Shown: positions 19,309-26,834, counted from the first letter of the stretch. The stretch is 64,000 nt of DNA from Bacteroidota bacterium (GCA_021796215.1 JAJYOK010000009.1:1-64000); one strand, 5' to 3'. Notes: generated by a model not told the origin, from the sequence alone. Program-made: numbers and translations.

Positions 19309-19395
19309 TTATGCACCGAGTTATTCACATCTTATTCAGGCAGAAGTTTGATTTTACACCGCTTTTTGGTATCTTTTTGCAAAGAATGTGGATAA
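19309..19395. promoter_or_regulatory. Cluster of DnaA-box-like sites in the yicC/rqcH divergent region
   Basis: Two 9-mers match the TTATNCACA consensus exactly: TTATTCACA on plus (19321-19329) and TTATCCACA on minus (19387-19395, seen as TGTGGATAA on plus). Weaker sites lie around them: TTATGCACC (19309-19317), TTATTCAGG (19332-19340) and TTTTACACC (19352-19360). AT-rich DNA flanks the cluster at 19240-19280. This could be a DnaA-regulated promoter, a titration site or part of an origin; no dnaA or dnaN gene is in the window. The last box overlaps the GTG that is one candidate start of the NFACT gene. Confidence 0.5.
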
Positions 19396-21121
19396 TTCAT
19401 GTCCCAAAGGGATTCCATTGGAACTTGCCAACTACTACACGCTGCTCCACATCGCCAACGCTCTCAACGAATCATGTGCCGGAAAAAGAATTACGCAGGT
19501 GTATTCCCAGCAGCGAAACCAGCTATGTGTTGAAATTGAAAACGATTGCACGCTGGTGATTTCCTGTGAACCGGCGGCAAATTTCCTTTATGCCGATAGA
19601 AAATTCAACCGAGCGAAAAAAAATACAGTTGATCTTTTCCCGGCGCTTGCCGGAAAACGCATCGAGGAAATTTTGTGCCATGCTTCTGACAGAAGTGTGA
19701 GTATTGCAATTGATGACAGCGGTGCGCTGTTTATTGATATGTTCGGTTCGCGCGCGAATGCTTTTCTTTGTACTCCGGCAGAAAACAACAATATGCGGGT
19801 TGCCGATGCTTTTTTGAGAAAGAAGGAAAACGTCGGAGCAGTGCGCCCGCCGTTTCATAAATTTAGCTCTGTCCAAGATCACAGCGCGCTATATGAAGAA
19901 ACACGATTTTTAGATGCATTACGGTCGAGCGGTGAAAGTGCGGTTTTTCCTGCACTGAAAAAAATTATCCCCACGCTTGGAACGCTGCTTGCAAAAGAAG
20001 CGCTGCTTCAAGCCGAGGTGCTTCCATCAGCTTCGATGGGCATCATCACTGACCGCGAACTGAGAAAAATTATTGCAGTAACGAGAAACCTGCTTCGCAT
20101 GTTGACAACATTCTCCGGCGAAGCGCAGCCGCGCGTTTATTACGAAGACCGAGCGCCGGTATGTTGTTCTTTGATTCCGCTGCGGATCTTTGAAAATTAT
20201 GAAGTTCGTCTATTTGACGATTTGAATGAAGCAATCCGAACATGTGCCGGCGAATCAAACCGTTCGGCATCTCTTTCAAAAGAAAAAACAGGAATTGTCG
20301 CCCGTCTTGAAAGCGAGCTGAAAAAGTCGGAACGCACGCTTAAAAAAATGAAAGAAGAATATAGCGCTCACGACCGCGCATCGGAATATGAATTATTCGG
20401 GAAATTGCTGATGCTGCATTTGGCCGGAGTTCAAAAAGGAATGAAAGAAGCGAGGCTGGAAGATTCAATTACGCAGTCCGGAGAAAAACAGATTCTTCTC
20501 GATCCATCGCTCTCGCCCGTGCGCAATGCAGAGCGGTATTTTGATAAGGCAAAAAAAGCACGTGCAGCAAAAGAAGAAACCGAACAGCGAATAAAGAATC
20601 TTCTTCATCACGCAAAACTTGTGCGCCTGCTTCTCGCAGAAGCGGAAGAGCTTCAATCAAAAGAAATGCTGAAGCAATTCACCCATACACATGCAGCGGA
20701 ATTAAAAGAGACTATCGGATTGGAGGAGAAGGGCAGCTCGCCGCTTCCGCCGTTTCGGATATTTACTGTGGACGGCGGCTTTCAAGTGCTCGCCGGAAAA
20801 AGCAGCGTGAATAATGATCTGCTTACAATGAAATATGCGAAGCCGAATGATCTCTGGTTTCATTGCCGCGGTTCGGGAGGTTCGCACGTTGTGTTGCGCG
20901 CCGGTACCGGGCACGGCGAAATTTCCAAAACCGCGATTCAACAAGCTGCGGCAATTGCCGCGTACTATAGCAAGATGAAAAACGCATCCATGGTCCCTGT
21001 CGCAATGACGGAAAAGAAATTCGTACGCAAACCGCACGGCGCGCCGGCCGGTACGGTAACTCTCGAGCGTGAGAAAGTTATTTTCGTAGAACCAAAACTT
21101 CCGGCGGCAGAATCGCATTAA
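19388..21121 (+). CDS. rqcH: NFACT family protein, RqcH-like ribosome quality control factor
   Basis: RqcH/NEMF-type protein that binds stalled 50S subunits and adds C-terminal alanine tails. The 577 residues show an N-terminal NFACT-N domain with the Asp-Arg pair in HASDRSVSIAIDD (Asp101-Arg102, equivalent to the tRNA-binding DR of Bacillus RqcH), a long charged coiled coil (about 290-450) and a C-terminal NFACT-R domain (AKPNDLWFHCRGSGGSHVVL, about 490-510). The start is uncertain. GTG at 19388 overlaps a DnaA box, while TTG at 19418 follows an AAAGGG Shine-Dalgarno site at the right distance and may be the real start. Divergent from yicC. Confidence 0.9.
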   Translation: MDNSCPKGIPLELANYYTLLHIANALNESCAGKRITQVYSQQRNQLCVEIENDCTLVISCEPAANFLYADRKFNRAKKNTVDLFPALAGKRIEEILCHASDRSVSIAIDDSGALFIDMFGSRANAFLCTPAENNNMRVADAFLRKKENVGAVRPPFHKFSSVQDHSALYEETRFLDALRSSGESAVFPALKKIIPTLGTLLAKEALLQAEVLPSASMGIITDRELRKIIAVTRNLLRMLTTFSGEAQPRVYYEDRAPVCCSLIPLRIFENYEVRLFDDLNEAIRTCAGESNRSASLSKEKTGIVARLESELKKSERTLKKMKEEYSAHDRASEYELFGKLLMLHLAGVQKGMKEARLEDSITQSGEKQILLDPSLSPVRNAERYFDKAKKARAAKEETEQRIKNLLHHAKLVRLLLAEAEELQSKEMLKQFTHTHAAELKETIGLEEKGSSPLPPFRIFTVDGGFQVLAGKSSVNNDLLTMKYAKPNDLWFHCRGSGGSHVVLRAGTGHGEISKTAIQQAAAIAAYYSKMKNASMVPVAMTEKKFVRKPHGAPAGTVTLEREKVIFVEPKLPAAESH

Positions 21122-21133
21122 TCAAAATATCTT

Positions 21134-21817
21134 ATGGCTGACAAAATTCTTGTTGTTGATGACGATCAGTATATCCGGCTTTTTCTGCAAAAACGGTTAG
21201 GCGCGCGCGGATATGAGATTATTCTTGCAGAGCACGGTGAAGACGGCTGGCAAAAAGCAAAATCTGAGGCGCCCGGACTCATCATATCGGATTGGATGAT
21301 GCCGAAAATGGACGGATTGGATTTTTGCAGAAAAGTCAAAGGAGACGAACAGCTGCGCTACGCATACTTCATTCTTCTCACCGCACGGGACACGCAGGAT
21401 GAGCGCACCGAGGGCATCGAGATTGGTGCAGATGATTATTTGACGAAACCGATCAACGATAAAGAATTGCTTACGCGCGTTAGAGCCGGACTGCGCATCA
21501 ACAGTCTGCAAAAAGAATTGACGGCGCTTCAGCATCAAAAGGCGATCATGGAACTTGCGGTTACACTTGGGCACGAAATCAATAATCCACTCGGCATAAT
21601 GATGCTGACGCTGCAAGTGATTCAACGGAAAAGTGACAGTCAATCGCTTGCCGGCATACGAAAGGAATTGGAGTCATGCATTCACAATGGAAACCGCATC
21701 GCCGAAATTGTGAAGCGCCTCTCGCGTCTCGACGACCCGCACTTCGTGCCATATTTAAAAAATTCCGACATAGATATGCTTGATCTTTCCCAAGGGGATT
21801 CACAATCAGGAAAATGA
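21134..21817 (+). CDS. Response regulator receiver fused to a histidine phosphotransfer (DHp) domain, no ATPase domain
   Basis: Protein of 227 residues in two parts. An N-terminal receiver domain (residues 3-118) has the acidic pocket VVDDD, phospho-acceptor Asp in IISDWMMPKMDG, and the Thr/Lys switch LLTARD and TKPI. A dimerisation/histidine-phosphotransfer helix pair follows, with the H-box LGHEINNPLG (about residues 153-162) that would carry the phosphate. There is no HATPase domain; the protein ends about 65 residues after the H-box. It therefore cannot phosphorylate itself and needs another kinase. The next gene overlaps by four bases (ATGA). A kinase with the opposite defect is encoded at 23758. 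Confidence 0.88.
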   Translation: MADKILVVDDDQYIRLFLQKRLGARGYEIILAEHGEDGWQKAKSEAPGLIISDWMMPKMDGLDFCRKVKGDEQLRYAYFILLTARDTQDERTEGIEIGADDYLTKPINDKELLTRVRAGLRINSLQKELTALQHQKAIMELAVTLGHEINNPLGIMMLTLQVIQRKSDSQSLAGIRKELESCIHNGNRIAEIVKRLSRLDDPHFVPYLKNSDIDMLDLSQGDSQSGK

Positions 21818-22923
21818 TGAGCCGGCATTTCCAGATCAAGCGGAAACTTTTTTTGCCTATTATTGCGCTGTGCTTGAGCGCCGAGGTTTCTTTCGGACAA
21901 ACATCGCCCGAATATTTCTATCACGGGCGTGAGTACGGTTCCGAAGCAATTTACAATCCGCTATCGCTTATCATCAACGGCGGCTTTGATGTGCTGCAGG
22001 CAAGCGCACATTCGCGTGCTCTTTCAACGCTTTCAATGGATATCGGAGCAAAAAATGTGTGGGAGAATATCAGCAATCCGTTTCCGCAGATTAACAAGTT
22101 TGGATGGAGCAGGTTTTTGGGTCAGGAAGTTTTTCCGACAAGTCTCGCGATCACGAAAGCGCAGTACTGGCCTAATTATACGCTGCATCTTATCGGCGGC
22201 GGAATGACATCGCGCGCAACGCTTGAATGGTTTCATCATCATGACATTCCTTATCCAAGTTTATGGACAGGAGTTACCATTGCGGCGTATCATTTTGTCA
22301 ACGAAGCGGTGGAGAACGGAGCATTTGTCGGTCCGAATGTTGACCCGATTGCCGACATCTGGATATTCGATGTCGGCGGAGTTGTTTTGTTTACGTCGGA
22401 TCAAGTGTGCGAATTTTTCAGCCGCACGCTTTACCTGACCGAGTGGGACGGGCAGCCGACATACAATCCGACGTTCGGCACAGTAGAAAACGAAGGACAA
22501 AATTTTGTTATGAAATACCCGCTTCATTTTCTTTCACATGTCAGCTTGTTTTATTATTTTGGCGATAACGGAATGCTTGGACTTTCTTTTGAACGCAAGA
22601 ACGGACACAGCATTACAGTCAGCGGCGGATTTGTGTCGAAAGAACTGCGCACAGTGGATTCACGCAATGGAACACGCACTGTAACCGCCGAACTTGGCTG
22701 GATCGCGGGAATCTTTTACGACCGTGATAATTCTCTTCTTGCATCATTAATTCTTTCCGATAAGATTAACGAGAGAGTGAAGATCAATATGTACCCGGGA
22801 GTTCTGAATATTGCAGGAATATCGCCGGGAATTTTTTGCAGCATGGGAATGGGAAGTCAATTTATCGCAGGACTCACGGTGCGGTACGTTCCGTTTGGGC
22901 TTGCGTACCGGAACGAGATGTAA
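21814..22923 (+). CDS. Exported protein of unknown function, probably outer membrane
   Basis: Protein of 369 residues with a cleavable signal peptide (LFLPIIALCLSAEVSFGQ, about residues 12-29). The rest has many aromatic and glycine residues and alternating strands near the C-terminus, suggesting a partly beta-barrel or outer-membrane protein. The middle (HLIGGGMTSRATLEWFHHHD then VDPIADIWIFDVGGVVLF) faintly resembles the pattern of DUF3943 outer-membrane proteins, but I would not assign that family without a profile search. It is translationally coupled to the receiver-DHp gene by an ATGA overlap, which suggests a signalling link or simply operon economy. Confidence 0.65.
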   Translation: MMSRHFQIKRKLFLPIIALCLSAEVSFGQTSPEYFYHGREYGSEAIYNPLSLIINGGFDVLQASAHSRALSTLSMDIGAKNVWENISNPFPQINKFGWSRFLGQEVFPTSLAITKAQYWPNYTLHLIGGGMTSRATLEWFHHHDIPYPSLWTGVTIAAYHFVNEAVENGAFVGPNVDPIADIWIFDVGGVVLFTSDQVCEFFSRTLYLTEWDGQPTYNPTFGTVENEGQNFVMKYPLHFLSHVSLFYYFGDNGMLGLSFERKNGHSITVSGGFVSKELRTVDSRNGTRTVTAELGWIAGIFYDRDNSLLASLILSDKINERVKINMYPGVLNIAGISPGIFCSMGMGSQFIAGLTVRYVPFGLAYRNEM

Positions 22924-22959
22924 AAAGGAAATCCACTTCACGATGATAAGGCGTCATTC

Positions 22960-23745
22960 ATGTATTCATTGAAGAACAAAATCGTTTTTATTACCGGCGC
23001 ATCAAGCGGGATAGGCGCTGCCTGTGCGCATCAGTTCGCTCAGCAGGGCGCACATCTTTTACTTGCGGCGCGACGGATTGAGCAGCTTGAAGACTACGCC
23101 CAAAAACTCCGAAGCAGCTTTCACGTCAGAATTCACACACTGAAACTTGACGTGCGGAAAGTTTCCGAAGTGGAAACCGCATTGAACGGTCTTCCGCAGG
23201 AATGGAAGAATATTTCCATCCTGGTGAACAATGCCGGGCTTGCGCGCGGCATGGAGCCGCTGTTCGAAGGACACATCGACGATTGGGAGGAAATGATTGA
23301 TACGAATGTGAAAGGATTGCTCTACGTCAGCCGTACGGTAATTCCCGGAATGATTGAGCGCGGAGAAGGACACATCATCAACATTGGGTCGGCGGCAGGG
23401 CATTGGGTGTATCCAAAAGGAAATGTGTATTGCGCCACAAAATATGCCGTCGCTGCATTGACAGAAGGCCTTCGCATGGATTTGCTCGGTACGCCGCTGC
23501 GCGTTTCGACAATTGATCCCGGTTTGGTCGAAACGGAATTCAGCGTTGTGCGGTTTCACGGCGACACACAGCGAGCAAAAACCCCATACGCCGGCATGAC
23601 GCCGTTGAGCGCGGATGATATTGCCGACGCTGTGCTGTATAGTGCAACGCGCCCGCCGCATGTTAATATTCAGGAAATTATTCTCATGCCGACAGCGCAA
23701 GCTGCAATCTCACTTGTTCACCGCAAACAGACAGAAATTCAATAA
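22960..23745 (+). CDS. Short-chain dehydrogenase/reductase (YdfG-like)
   Basis: Classical SDR of 261 residues. It has the Rossmann motif TGASSGIGAACA (about 11-22), the structural NNAG motif in VNNAGLARGMEPL, the catalytic Ser in IINIGSAAGHWVYPKG and the YxxxK pair in YCATKYAVAALTEG. DPGLVETEF follows. The sequence style matches the YdfG/serine dehydrogenase group that oxidises 3-hydroxy acids such as L-allo-threonine or 3-hydroxypropionate, but this assignment is inference. It lies in a plus-strand run between the two unusual signalling genes and is separated from the following one by 12 bases. Confidence 0.9.
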   Translation: MYSLKNKIVFITGASSGIGAACAHQFAQQGAHLLLAARRIEQLEDYAQKLRSSFHVRIHTLKLDVRKVSEVETALNGLPQEWKNISILVNNAGLARGMEPLFEGHIDDWEEMIDTNVKGLLYVSRTVIPGMIERGEGHIINIGSAAGHWVYPKGNVYCATKYAVAALTEGLRMDLLGTPLRVSTIDPGLVETEFSVVRFHGDTQRAKTPYAGMTPLSADDIADAVLYSATRPPHVNIQEIILMPTAQAAISLVHRKQTEIQ

Positions 23746-23757
23746 AAGGAGTCCATA

Positions 23758-24828
23758 ATGGACAATGCTAAAGCCAACATATTGATTGCAGATGATGAAG
23801 AAACATTCCGAATGCTTTTGAAGGATGTTCTTATGGAAGAAGGTTTTCCTGTTGATCTTGCTGTTGACGGTGACGAGGCAATCAGCAAAGTGAAAAAACA
23901 GGCATTCGATATCATGCTGCTTGATCTTCGAATGCCGAACAAAAACGGAATAGAAGTTTTAAGATTTTGCAAAGAGCATTCTATCAACGTCGACATTATT
24001 GTTCTTACCGGTGTGGACGATATTCGCATCGCCGTTGATTGCATGAAACTTGGCGCAACCGAGTTCATGGTGAAACCGATAGAGGCGGAAAACCTTCTGC
24101 TTAAAATTCACTCCGTTATGCGTGCGCGGGAAGCCGAGGCACGCCTGCGTAATCTTGAAATTCAGTACACGACAACCTTGCTTCTCGATCTTCGCACGCC
24201 GTTGAACGGCATGCGCACTTCGGTCGGATATTTTATGAAAGGCTGGGCTGGTCCCGTCATGCCGGAACAAGAACAATTGCTCCACTATCTCAACGACGCC
24301 TCGGAGCGCATGCAGTCAATATTGGACGATATGATAGATGTGACGAAGCTCGAAGCGGGGAAAATCTCTCTGACGAAAAGTTCTGTTGATTTGCAAAATC
24401 TGATCGGCAATGTATGCCAGCGGTATGAAGTGCAGGCACGCAATGCCGGCATTTCGCTGAATTGTCAAACGGCGGATCAGCACCAGATGGTTGAAGTTGA
24501 TGCCGAACATATTGAACAAGTGCTGGAAAATCTTCTTGACAATGCGCTGCGTTTCACACCGAAAGAAGGGGAAATTCAGGTCTCTTTCCGTCCAGTGCCA
24601 TCAGCAGTACAAATTTCTGTTGTGGATTCCGGCGACGGAATTTCTGAAGCGGACATGCCGCATTTGTTCGACAAGTATAAACACGTGATCGGGAAGAAAT
24701 CAAAAGAGAAGGCAACAGGACTCGGTTTGGCGATTTGCAAAAAAATTATTGAAGCGCACAACGGAAAAATCTGGGCGGAATCAAAGCCAGGCAGCGGCGC
24801 ACAATTTCATTTCACGCTGCCATTGTAA
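23758..24828 (+). CDS. Receiver-histidine kinase hybrid lacking the H-box histidine
   Basis: Protein of 356 residues. The receiver domain (residues 6-120) has the acidic pair ADDEE, phospho-acceptor LLDLRMPNKNG and VKPIEAE. A HisKA-like helix pair follows, but the H-box, normally SHELRTPLN, reads LLDLRTPLN, with the codon CTC (24187-24189) where His is expected. A complete HATPase domain follows: N-box LENLLDNALRF, G1 VDSGDGIS, F-box LFDKYKHV, G2 ATGLGLAICKKI and the end SKPGSGAQFHFTLPL. It has no sensor or membrane segment. A Shine-Dalgarno site AAAGGAG precedes the ATG. It may phosphorylate a partner's histidine, act as phosphatase, or be a pseudokinase; see the finding on the gene pair. 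Confidence 0.9.
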   Translation: MDNAKANILIADDEETFRMLLKDVLMEEGFPVDLAVDGDEAISKVKKQAFDIMLLDLRMPNKNGIEVLRFCKEHSINVDIIVLTGVDDIRIAVDCMKLGATEFMVKPIEAENLLLKIHSVMRAREAEARLRNLEIQYTTTLLLDLRTPLNGMRTSVGYFMKGWAGPVMPEQEQLLHYLNDASERMQSILDDMIDVTKLEAGKISLTKSSVDLQNLIGNVCQRYEVQARNAGISLNCQTADQHQMVEVDAEHIEQVLENLLDNALRFTPKEGEIQVSFRPVPSAVQISVVDSGDGISEADMPHLFDKYKHVIGKKSKEKATGLGLAICKKIIEAHNGKIWAESKPGSGAQFHFTLPL

Positions 24829-24857: not shown

Positions 24858-25865
24858 TTACCACGCAACATTTACATCTACGCCGCCGCCGCGAAGAGTA
24901 AACGAGGGAGAGAAATTGATTTGTGGAGAATTCTCTCCGAGTGAACGACTGACATTAATACTTCCGGAGGTGGATGCAATTTTTCCAAACGAATACCCCA
25001 ATGCAATACCGAGCGGTAAATCGCTGTACCAGTGCATTCCTTTTCCCACTAAACTCGCTCCTACCAGTCCGGTGAGCAGATAACTTGCCGGTGTAAGCCA
25101 TACGCGATATTCCGGATAGTTTTCGTTGAGCACCGTGAGAGAACCAACCAGTGTTGCAAGATGCCCTGACGGAAACGAATAGTACTGCGACTGGTGAAGT
25201 TGGTATTGTTTCTGATTCGGGAATAATCGCCAATCGCCATCATCATCCCGTATTACAACAATCGGGCTTTGTCTTCCTGTAGAGTGTTTTAAAATCTGTA
25301 CTACGAATCCGCTTGCAAGGAATGTTTCCACCAGTTGGCTCGAAGTTTGCAACAATCGCCTGCTATTCGCTGCCCAGCCGATAACGGCAAACCCGCCGAT
25401 GACAGCGAGATGGTACCTTCCATCTCCGGCGCATACAAGATAATTACTGGCATGCTGCAAGAAAGGTGTACTGTTCAGGAAATCTTTTGTTTGAGTATAG
25501 GTGGCATGGTCGAATACTGCCAATGCGGCAGTAGCCGCGCCAAGTTCCGCTACAGTTGATAAGTTCTGTGTACGAAAAGTCTGTTTGCCAAAACTATACC
25601 AATCGTTGGGAAGCTTAGTAACCATTGAATACCAGTGTACATCTTCGATTTCTATGGCGGCATTGCTCTTGTTTGAAGGAACGCCGGGCGTTGCTGTAAG
25701 TGCTCGGAAGTCCGAGAGAGAATCGGCTGCTGCAATAGCGCTGTGATTGTTTTTGAGAGGCAGCGACAAAGCGTTTTCAAAAAGCAACGCGTATAAAAGA
25801 AACAGAAAAAATGAAACGGAATGTTTCGACAAAGAAGCTGGATGTGTCATTTCTTTGCGCCTCAT
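24858..25865 (-). CDS. PAP2-family phosphatase, exported (copy 1 of tandem pair)
   Basis: Membrane or periplasmic phosphatase of the type-2 phosphatidic acid phosphatase superfamily, 335 residues. It has a signal peptide (VSFFLFLLYALLFENALS, about residues 13-30). Catalytic motif 1 is KHSTGRQSP, motif 2 is PSGHLATLVG with the catalytic histidine, and motif 3 is GKGMHWYSDLPLG. The arginine normally near the start of motif 3 is Leu here. Likely substrates are lipid phosphates or pyrophosphates such as undecaprenyl diphosphate, but this is not shown. The gene follows its paralogue by six bases. Confidence 0.87.
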   Translation of the reverse strand: MRRKEMTHPASLSKHSVSFFLFLLYALLFENALSLPLKNNHSAIAAADSLSDFRALTATPGVPSNKSNAAIEIEDVHWYSMVTKLPNDWYSFGKQTFRTQNLSTVAELGAATAALAVFDHATYTQTKDFLNSTPFLQHASNYLVCAGDGRYHLAVIGGFAVIGWAANSRRLLQTSSQLVETFLASGFVVQILKHSTGRQSPIVVIRDDDGDWRLFPNQKQYQLHQSQYYSFPSGHLATLVGSLTVLNENYPEYRVWLTPASYLLTGLVGASLVGKGMHWYSDLPLGIALGYSFGKIASTSGSINVSRSLGENSPQINFSPSFTLRGGGVDVNVAW

Positions 25866-25871
25866 GGTAAG

Positions 25872-26834
25872 TTATAATGAGAGTGAAATATCAAAGCCGA
25901 TTTCTGATCCATTGAAGAAGGGACCAATGGACACGGGATTTTTTTTTGATGCACCGAGATGTGCAACAGTTTCACCTTCGGGATGAGCCACAATTTCTCC
26001 AAAGGCAGAGCCAAGTGCAATTGCCAGGGGATAATCGCTGTACCAATGAATGCCTGTATTCACCATGCTCACACTAATAAGCCCGCATAGCGCGTAGCCC
26101 ACGGGGCGAATCCATGTCAGTTCCGGATAATTGTCAGCAACAACAATAACTGTGACGAGTGATGTTGTGAGATGGCCCGACGGAAAGGCATCATAATGCG
26201 GCACTTGTTTATGGTACTTGATTTGATTCGGAAAAAATCGCCAAACACCTGTCGGTTGAGTGGAAACAAACGGGCTTTCTCTTCCGGTGATATGCTTTAT
26301 TATCTGCACAACTCCGCCGGAAGCAAGCACAGCTTCAACAATTTCACTGCCCGTTCGAACCGCACGATTATCTCCGGCAATCAATCCGTACGCCGCAAAC
26401 GCTCCAGCCAATCCGAATTGCGAGCGCCCGTCTCCCATTTCGGTAAAGAAGTCGCTTGCCCATTTCACGGATGATGAACTACGGTACCATTTATCTCCGG
26501 TGCGCCATGTGCCGTTATCGGTCAGCACCAGTGCGGTGGTCGCCGCCGCGACGACAGCGTACTCAGGAATTTTTTCCGTTCGAAAAGTTTCTTTGCCATA
26601 TCTGACCCAATCGCCGGGGACATTGGTGATCATATTGTACCAATGGAGTGCAGCAGGACTCGAGCCGGTGGAGTAGAGAGAGTCATGTGCATTGGATTTT
26701 GTTTCATTGAAAGAATATAAAGCAGGAGTCAACGTTGCAGTTGAATCGCGGTACATTGTGGCAGCGTTGTTAATGGCTGGCATCGAAAGCACAGCTGCTG
26801 TAAGAAGCCGAATAAAGTTGAAGGAATGGTTCAC
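25872..26834 (-). CDS. PAP2-family phosphatase, exported (copy 2 of tandem pair)
   Basis: Paralogue of the next gene downstream, 320 residues with a GTG start. It has a signal peptide (FIRLLTAAVLSMPAINNAA). Shared blocks include YGKETFRTEKIPEYAVVAAA near residue 78, motif 1 IKHITGRESPFV, motif 2 AFPSGHLTTSLVTV and motif 3 NTGIHWYSDYPLAIALG. As in copy 1 the motif-3 arginine is replaced, here by Met. The two copies are clearly related but diverged, so the duplication is old. Upstream is a 220-base gap without features. Confidence 0.87.
   Translation of the reverse strand: MNHSFNFIRLLTAAVLSMPAINNAATMYRDSTATLTPALYSFNETKSNAHDSLYSTGSSPAALHWYNMITNVPGDWVRYGKETFRTEKIPEYAVVAAATTALVLTDNGTWRTGDKWYRSSSSVKWASDFFTEMGDGRSQFGLAGAFAAYGLIAGDNRAVRTGSEIVEAVLASGGVVQIIKHITGRESPFVSTQPTGVWRFFPNQIKYHKQVPHYDAFPSGHLTTSLVTVIVVADNYPELTWIRPVGYALCGLISVSMVNTGIHWYSDYPLAIALGSAFGEIVAHPEGETVAHLGASKKNPVSIGPFFNGSEIGFDISLSL

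Follow-up and report, generated by a model that had tools for sequence, protein, structure and literature searches.

The Locus and Its Two Signaling Proteins

What does a histidine kinase do once its histidine is gone? The 64,000-nucleotide stretch of a Bacteroidota genome analyzed here (GCA_021796215.1, JAJYOK010000009.1:1-64000; the window) encodes two signaling proteins with complementary defects, confirmed by Pfam and alignment: protein 1 has the phospho-acceptor histidine without an ATPase domain, and protein 2 has the ATPase domain without the histidine (Table 1). A first-pass annotation had described them in this way, protein 1 as a receiver and a dimerization helix pair (DHp) with an intact HEINNPLG H-box and no ATPase domain, protein 2 as a receiver, an H-box with Leu, and a full ATPase domain; Pfam agrees on both, as does the alignment with homologues for protein 2. 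The open reading frames (ORFs) also bear out that the two genes lie on the same strand within 3.7 kb, with an exported protein and a short-chain dehydrogenase/reductase (SDR) between them. The Leu codon had been read correctly as CTC but placed at 24187-24189, which is GAT (Asp144); it lies one triplet upstream (24184-24186).

In protein 2, the HisKA (aa 144-201, 45.3 bits) and HATPase_c (aa 248-356, 105.2 bits) matches both pass the curated Pfam thresholds, and the N, G1, F, and G2 boxes are all canonical. Relative to the missing histidine, the +1 residue is Asp144 and the +4 residue Thr147. In the HisKA class, kinase activity depends on the +1 acid, and the +4 Thr/Asn is needed only for phosphatase activity (PMC3510030). 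All 26 other kinases with HisKA and HATPase domains read in this genome have the histidine, making protein 2 the sole exception among 27 and its Leu unusual. The nearest solved structure to its receiver is Aquifex NtrC1 (1zy2), and across 49 homologues Asp56 and Lys106 are invariant and position 84 is Thr or Ser; the transmitter module matches the DivL structure (4q20, E = 1e-23). In protein 1, the HisKA domain (aa 144-200) scores 28.9 bits against a cut-off of 26.9, and the Pfam search returned no HATPase domain. AlphaFold2 models from three-sequence alignments were poor (mean predicted local distance difference test scores of 58 and 47).

Table 1. Features of the locus, with positions counted from the first nucleotide of the window
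Feature	Position	Strand	Basis
Protein 2, 356 aa, receiver-DHp(His to Leu)-CA pseudokinase	23758..24828	+	ORF and Pfam
Protein 2 receiver, NtrC type, phospho-acceptor Asp56, aa 8-117	23779..24108	+	PF00072
Leu143 (CTC) at the phospho-acceptor His position of protein 2	24184..24186	+	alignment with His-bearing homologues
Thr147, +4 H-box residue of protein 2	24196..24198	+	needed for HisKA phosphatase activity according to PMC3510030
Protein 2 CA domain: N (Asn262), G1 (DSGDGI, 290-295), F, G2 (TGLGLAI, 320-326)	24499..24825	+	PF02518
Protein 1, 227 aa, receiver-DHp without ATPase domain	21134..21817	+	ORF and Pfam
Protein 1 receiver, aa 5-117	21146..21484	+	PF00072 Response_reg, 91.9 bits
Protein 1 intact H-box HEINNPLG; His147 = CAC, 21572-21574	21572..21595	+	sequence
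Protein 1 conserved C-terminal tail PYLKNSDIDMLDLS	21749..21790	+	common to relatives in f5 and paralogues of a pseudo-DHp family
NFACT/Rqc2-type gene (presumed family)	19388..21121	+	neighborhood cluster c1
Exported protein, no assigned function	21814..22923	+	ORF; neighborhood cluster c14
SDR	22960..23745	+	PF00106, 177 bits; cluster c2

History of the Histidine Loss

Is the missing histidine real, and how old is its loss? Comparisons were made across 98 genomes of the order; the host genome (G000, 3.37 Mb) belongs to a genus of family f1, and families (f), genera (g), genomes (G), contigs (C), and loci (L) are cited by the code labels of this set. Two congeners, both independently assembled Bacteroidota metagenome-assembled genomes, carry protein 2 at 77-81% identity (JAJYOI010000006.1 and JAGWND010000006.1), and both have Leu, with codons CTC and CTT, which argues against a sequencing error. 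The ratio of nonsynonymous to synonymous substitution rates (dN/dS) within the genus is ~0.1 overall; the ATPase domain gives 0.05-0.16, and dS is close to saturation or exceeds it. Leu in three species and this low ratio rule out both sequencing error and a pseudogene: protein 2 has lost the histidine, yet it is conserved under purifying selection in the genus.

Orthologues of protein 2 (E ≤ 1e-75) were found in 40 of the 98 genomes, namely all three of the genus, most of f6, and six of f3; at this threshold there were none in the other 19 f1 genomes. Family f2 added four weaker matches, and among 391 sampled genomes of the class, matches were confined to the order. The histidine is absent from every orthologue in the genus (Leu, 3/3) and in f6 (31/31; Tyr in 24, Phe in 7). 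It is retained in 8 of 10 from f3 (His 5, Leu 1) and f2 (His 3, Tyr 1), where a single genus contains both states (G022 Tyr, G032 His). Conservation of the change, raised as a check in the first-pass annotation, is thus found in the genus and, as His loss, throughout f6, but mostly not in f3 and f2. A maximum-likelihood tree that excluded the H-box His column groups the proteins of the genus with those of f6 in a single clade (support 95/97); the orthologue group as a whole requires a minimum of three independent losses. The most likely course is therefore that the common ancestor of the genus and f6 proteins had already lost the histidine before protein 2 met protein 1. The interchange of Tyr and Phe in f6, with Leu in the genus, indicates that a phosphorylatable residue is dispensable; Tyr is an unlikely substitute acceptor, since Phe and Leu occupy the same position.

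The residues around the lost histidine have been kept in this clade. The +4 position is Thr or Asn in all 34 proteins (Thr 3/3 in the genus; Asn 30 and Thr 1 in f6), and the +1 Asp, present in 31/31 f6 proteins, is invariant throughout. The f6 ATPase domain has Asn for the G1 Asp in 31/31 and has lost the N-box Asn in 3. In f3, the +4 residue is Ser, Ala, or Thr.

Gene Neighborhoods and a Candidate Partner

Which regulator might protein 2 have served? The gene directly 3' of protein 2 in f6 and f2 encodes an NtrC-type sigma-54 regulator, and in most of the f6 and f2 neighborhoods read protein 2 is divergent from genes that we take, from their sequences, to encode histidine ammonia-lyase and adenosine deaminase. 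The metabolic genes are retained near protein 2 in f3, where the NtrC-type regulator is not adjacent. In the host genome the regulator's orthologue (65%; G000:C37:237486-238844) is unlinked to protein 2, and no kinase gene lies beside it. The synteny in f6 and f2, together with the NtrC1-like receiver, points to the NtrC-type regulator as the original partner of protein 2. The f2 orthologues, though adjoining the NtrC-type gene (L143, L146), have Lys rather than Asp/Glu at +1 and Ile or Leu at +4.

Protein 1 and Its Distribution

How closely is protein 1 tied to protein 2? Among the 98 genomes, 3 have both proteins (all of this genus), 17 protein 1 alone, and 37 protein 2 alone; co-occurrence is below chance (Fisher odds ratio 0.2), with lineage effects dominating. 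The syntenic co-occurrence proposed as a check thus appears in the genus (3/3) and nowhere beyond it. These counts and searches of the genome inventory rule out protein 1 as the unique partner of protein 2.

Protein 1 has a history of its own. Orthologues occur in 20 of 22 f1 genomes, the sole exceptions being two 1.7-Mb genomes of genus g8, and in the f1 neighborhoods read the exported protein and SDR seen here often come next. The H-box His, +1 Glu, and +4 Asn are invariant in the 19 full-length f1 orthologues, and the f5 relatives retain the His. No orthologue was detected in most f6 genomes; weak relatives in the f6 genus g18 have Asp for His and keep the +4 Asn. Most members read of a paralogue family in the host genome (G000:C34) have a degenerate H-box and still share the C-terminal tail, so that the pattern (P/K)Y(L/I/A)K(D/N)..(M/I)(L/I)D occurs in receiver-DHp proteins with and without His (21749-21790; L184 5063-5791). 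The nearest DHp among the full kinases of the genome is that of C6:44647 (31%). Protein 1 is best read as an independent receiver-DHp protein of f1, most likely serving other regulators as a phosphotransfer or phosphatase module.

Other ATPase-Less DHp and His-Less Proteins

In the host genome, the DHp or DHp-like proteins without an ATPase domain number at least five, protein 1 among them. A receiver-DHp protein with an HEFNNPL H-box (CHEFNNPLAAIKIS; L135 3079-3879, G000:C5) has matches in 81 of the 98 genomes, often twice, and a membrane-anchored DHp-only protein with HQINNPL (L173 6391-6993, G000:C39) has matches in 67. At L135, an NtrC-type paralogue and a short receiver are encoded divergently from the receiver-DHp gene.

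A second case of a His-less kinase adjoining an ATPase-less DHp was seen in G003 (L159 7134-11904) and G016 (L162 3414-6715), where an NtrC-type gene is followed by a receiver-DHp-CA protein with Asn for His (LLLSNELQ) and then by a membrane DHp-only protein with HEINNPL or HQINNPL; the G003 locus also has an intact receiver-kinase.

Interpretation of Protein 2

Building on the observed domain content, the histidine loss and its history, the retained Thr/Asn and ATP boxes, and the gene neighborhoods, we favor, at a probability of roughly 0.5, the reading that protein 2 is a receiver-gated HisKA pseudokinase/phosphatase acting on the NtrC-type sigma-54 regulator, with protein 1 independent of it. 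Protein 2 would fold, dimerize, and bind ATP, but would be unable to autophosphorylate because its phospho-acceptor is Leu. Its NtrC-like receiver, with Asp56 intact, would serve as the input and its ATPase domain as a conformational clamp, and the DHp would dock the phosphorylated regulator (here presumably the C37 orthologue) and use Thr147 to remove or withhold the phosphoryl group; protein 1 would share an operon-like run with it in this genus. A precedent is CrdS H371A, which retains most phosphatase activity: the half-life of CrdA~P is 53.5 min alone and 2.6 min with this variant (PMC3510030). Several points weigh against this reading. The kinase-only +1 acid (Asp144) is equally invariant across the His-less clade; PleC H610A lost its phosphatase activity (PMC3510030); and DivL, which is His-less, is inactive both as a kinase and as a phosphatase (PMC4211667), so the +4 Thr/Asn may not suffice, and the motif cannot decide between a phosphatase and a sensor. 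The phosphatase residue is missing from two His-less homologues, those of G057 (+4 Ser) and G022 (+1 Lys, +4 Leu). The +4 pattern comes from essentially one clade and so is not an independent statistical test of a link with His loss, and protein 2 is unlinked to the NtrC-type gene in this genus.

The example of DivL, with its His-to-Tyr state and both activities absent, makes it possible, though on balance unlikely, that protein 2 is a sensor without catalysis, its DHp binding a phosphorylated regulator and either switching a different, full kinase allosterically or forming a heterodimer with it. The f2 and some f3 homologues have also lost the +1 acid or the +4 Thr/Asn, suggesting that catalysis can be dispensable in this family, and the G1 substitution and N-box losses of f6 fit the same picture. 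However, this genus retains every ATP box along with the +1 Asp and the +4 Thr, protein 2 has no PAS domains, unlike DivL, and no candidate partner kinase was identified. Decay to a functionless kinase would account for the absence of the essential histidine, but it is largely refuted and hardly credible given the low dN/dS in every domain, the full-length frames in three species, and the fixation of the His-less form across f6.

The first-pass annotation had preferred a split kinase, in which protein 2 supplies the ATPase domain that phosphorylates, in trans, His147 of protein 1; its alternatives, a pseudokinase or a phosphatase, have held up better. As a conserved system the split kinase is not supported, because the pair co-occurs only in this genus (3/98) and the histidine loss appears older than the pairing. 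The shared operon-like run and the intact ATPase domain leave room for trans-phosphorylation within the genus, which we consider improbable. The two genes share this run in 3/3 genomes (directly adjacent in G001), the ATP boxes are canonical here and not in f6, and the chance of same-strand proximity within 3.7 kb is ~0.1% for the given pair and ~0.5% for any of five DHp-only genes, uncorrected for post hoc choice. CheA3/CheA4 offer a precedent, and 1.7% of HisKA proteins have been proposed as possible split kinases (PMC3591291). Yet the His-less f6 protein adjoins the NtrC-type gene rather than protein 1, protein 1 has its own gene neighbors and is conserved in 17 genomes that lack protein 2, and the genome encodes at least four further proteins that are DHp-only or DHp-like. 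The DHp domains of the two proteins give no BLASTP alignment at E ≤ 100, and their profile match is almost wholly in the receiver. Trans-phosphorylation of a different ATPase-less DHp protein, the HEFNNPL receiver-DHp or the membrane HQINNPL protein, seems very improbable: both families are widespread and in f6 are mostly found alongside protein 2, and the His-to-Asn kinase of G003 and G016 adjoins a membrane DHp-only protein and an NtrC-type gene, but genomes without protein 2 commonly have these families too, the ATPase domain shows partial erosion in f6, and the membrane protein has Gln, not Glu, at +1 in this genome. We likewise doubt that the order has a dispersed phosphorylation network in which its His-less kinases and its ATPase-less receiver-DHp and membrane-DHp families make up shared kinases acting in trans, proteins 1 and 2 being one such pair linked by an operon.

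Relation to Known Systems

Well-characterized bacterial HisKA pseudokinases are few, DivL of Caulobacter being the main example that we found. Like protein 2, DivL has a HisKA transmitter with another residue for His (Tyr, or Ala in Magnetospirillum), and its proposed role is to sense a phosphorylated regulator (PMC4211667). DivL has PAS domains, binds ATP poorly, and works with CckA/DivK, whereas protein 2 has an N-terminal NtrC-type receiver, canonical ATP boxes, and relatives syntenic with an NtrC-type activator. CrdS H371A and E372A, in which phosphatase activity is retained, resemble protein 2 in losing the acceptor His or kinase activity while keeping the +4 Thr/Asn and ATPase domain (PMC3510030), but they are laboratory mutants, and protein 2 is natural and conserved. 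In CheA3/CheA4 of Rhodobacter sphaeroides, as in proteins 1 and 2, His and ATPase lie on separate proteins (PMC3591291); that pair is of the CheA type, with complementary loss and demonstrated trans-phosphorylation, whereas proteins 1 and 2 are together in one genus only and the His loss appears older. Protein 1 resembles phosphotransferases of the Spo0B/ChpT type, which have a His-bearing DHp and no kinase activity of their own, but differs in its receiver, its conserved short tail, and the lack of a remnant ATPase fold. The open-access literature searched yielded no description of truncated DHp or receiver-DHp proteins.

The protein 2 group thus combines at least three histidine losses, a retained receiver and fold, a candidate NtrC-type partner, and His-bearing sisters (once in the same genus), which makes the role of a His-less kinase directly testable. 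The order also has widespread, conserved ATPase-less receiver-DHp proteins, some with a common C-terminal motif.

The Gene Run around Proteins 1 and 2

Five genes, from one that we take to be of the NFACT/Rqc2 type through protein 2, lie on one strand with successive spacings of 12 bp, a 4-bp overlap, 36 bp, and 12 bp. With gaps of at most 36 bp, the run looks like a single operon; promoter- and terminator-like matches within it were not above shuffle expectation. The NFACT/Rqc2-type gene is directly 5' of protein 1 in every f1 neighborhood read. Neighborhood clustering identifies the SDR as a conserved neighbor of protein 1, as is the exported protein in several f1 genera; a Pfam search with the latter gave no match. 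On the opposite strand (24858-26834), two tandem related exported proteins that resemble PAP2-type phosphatases, a tentative label, are kept beside protein 2 in the genus.

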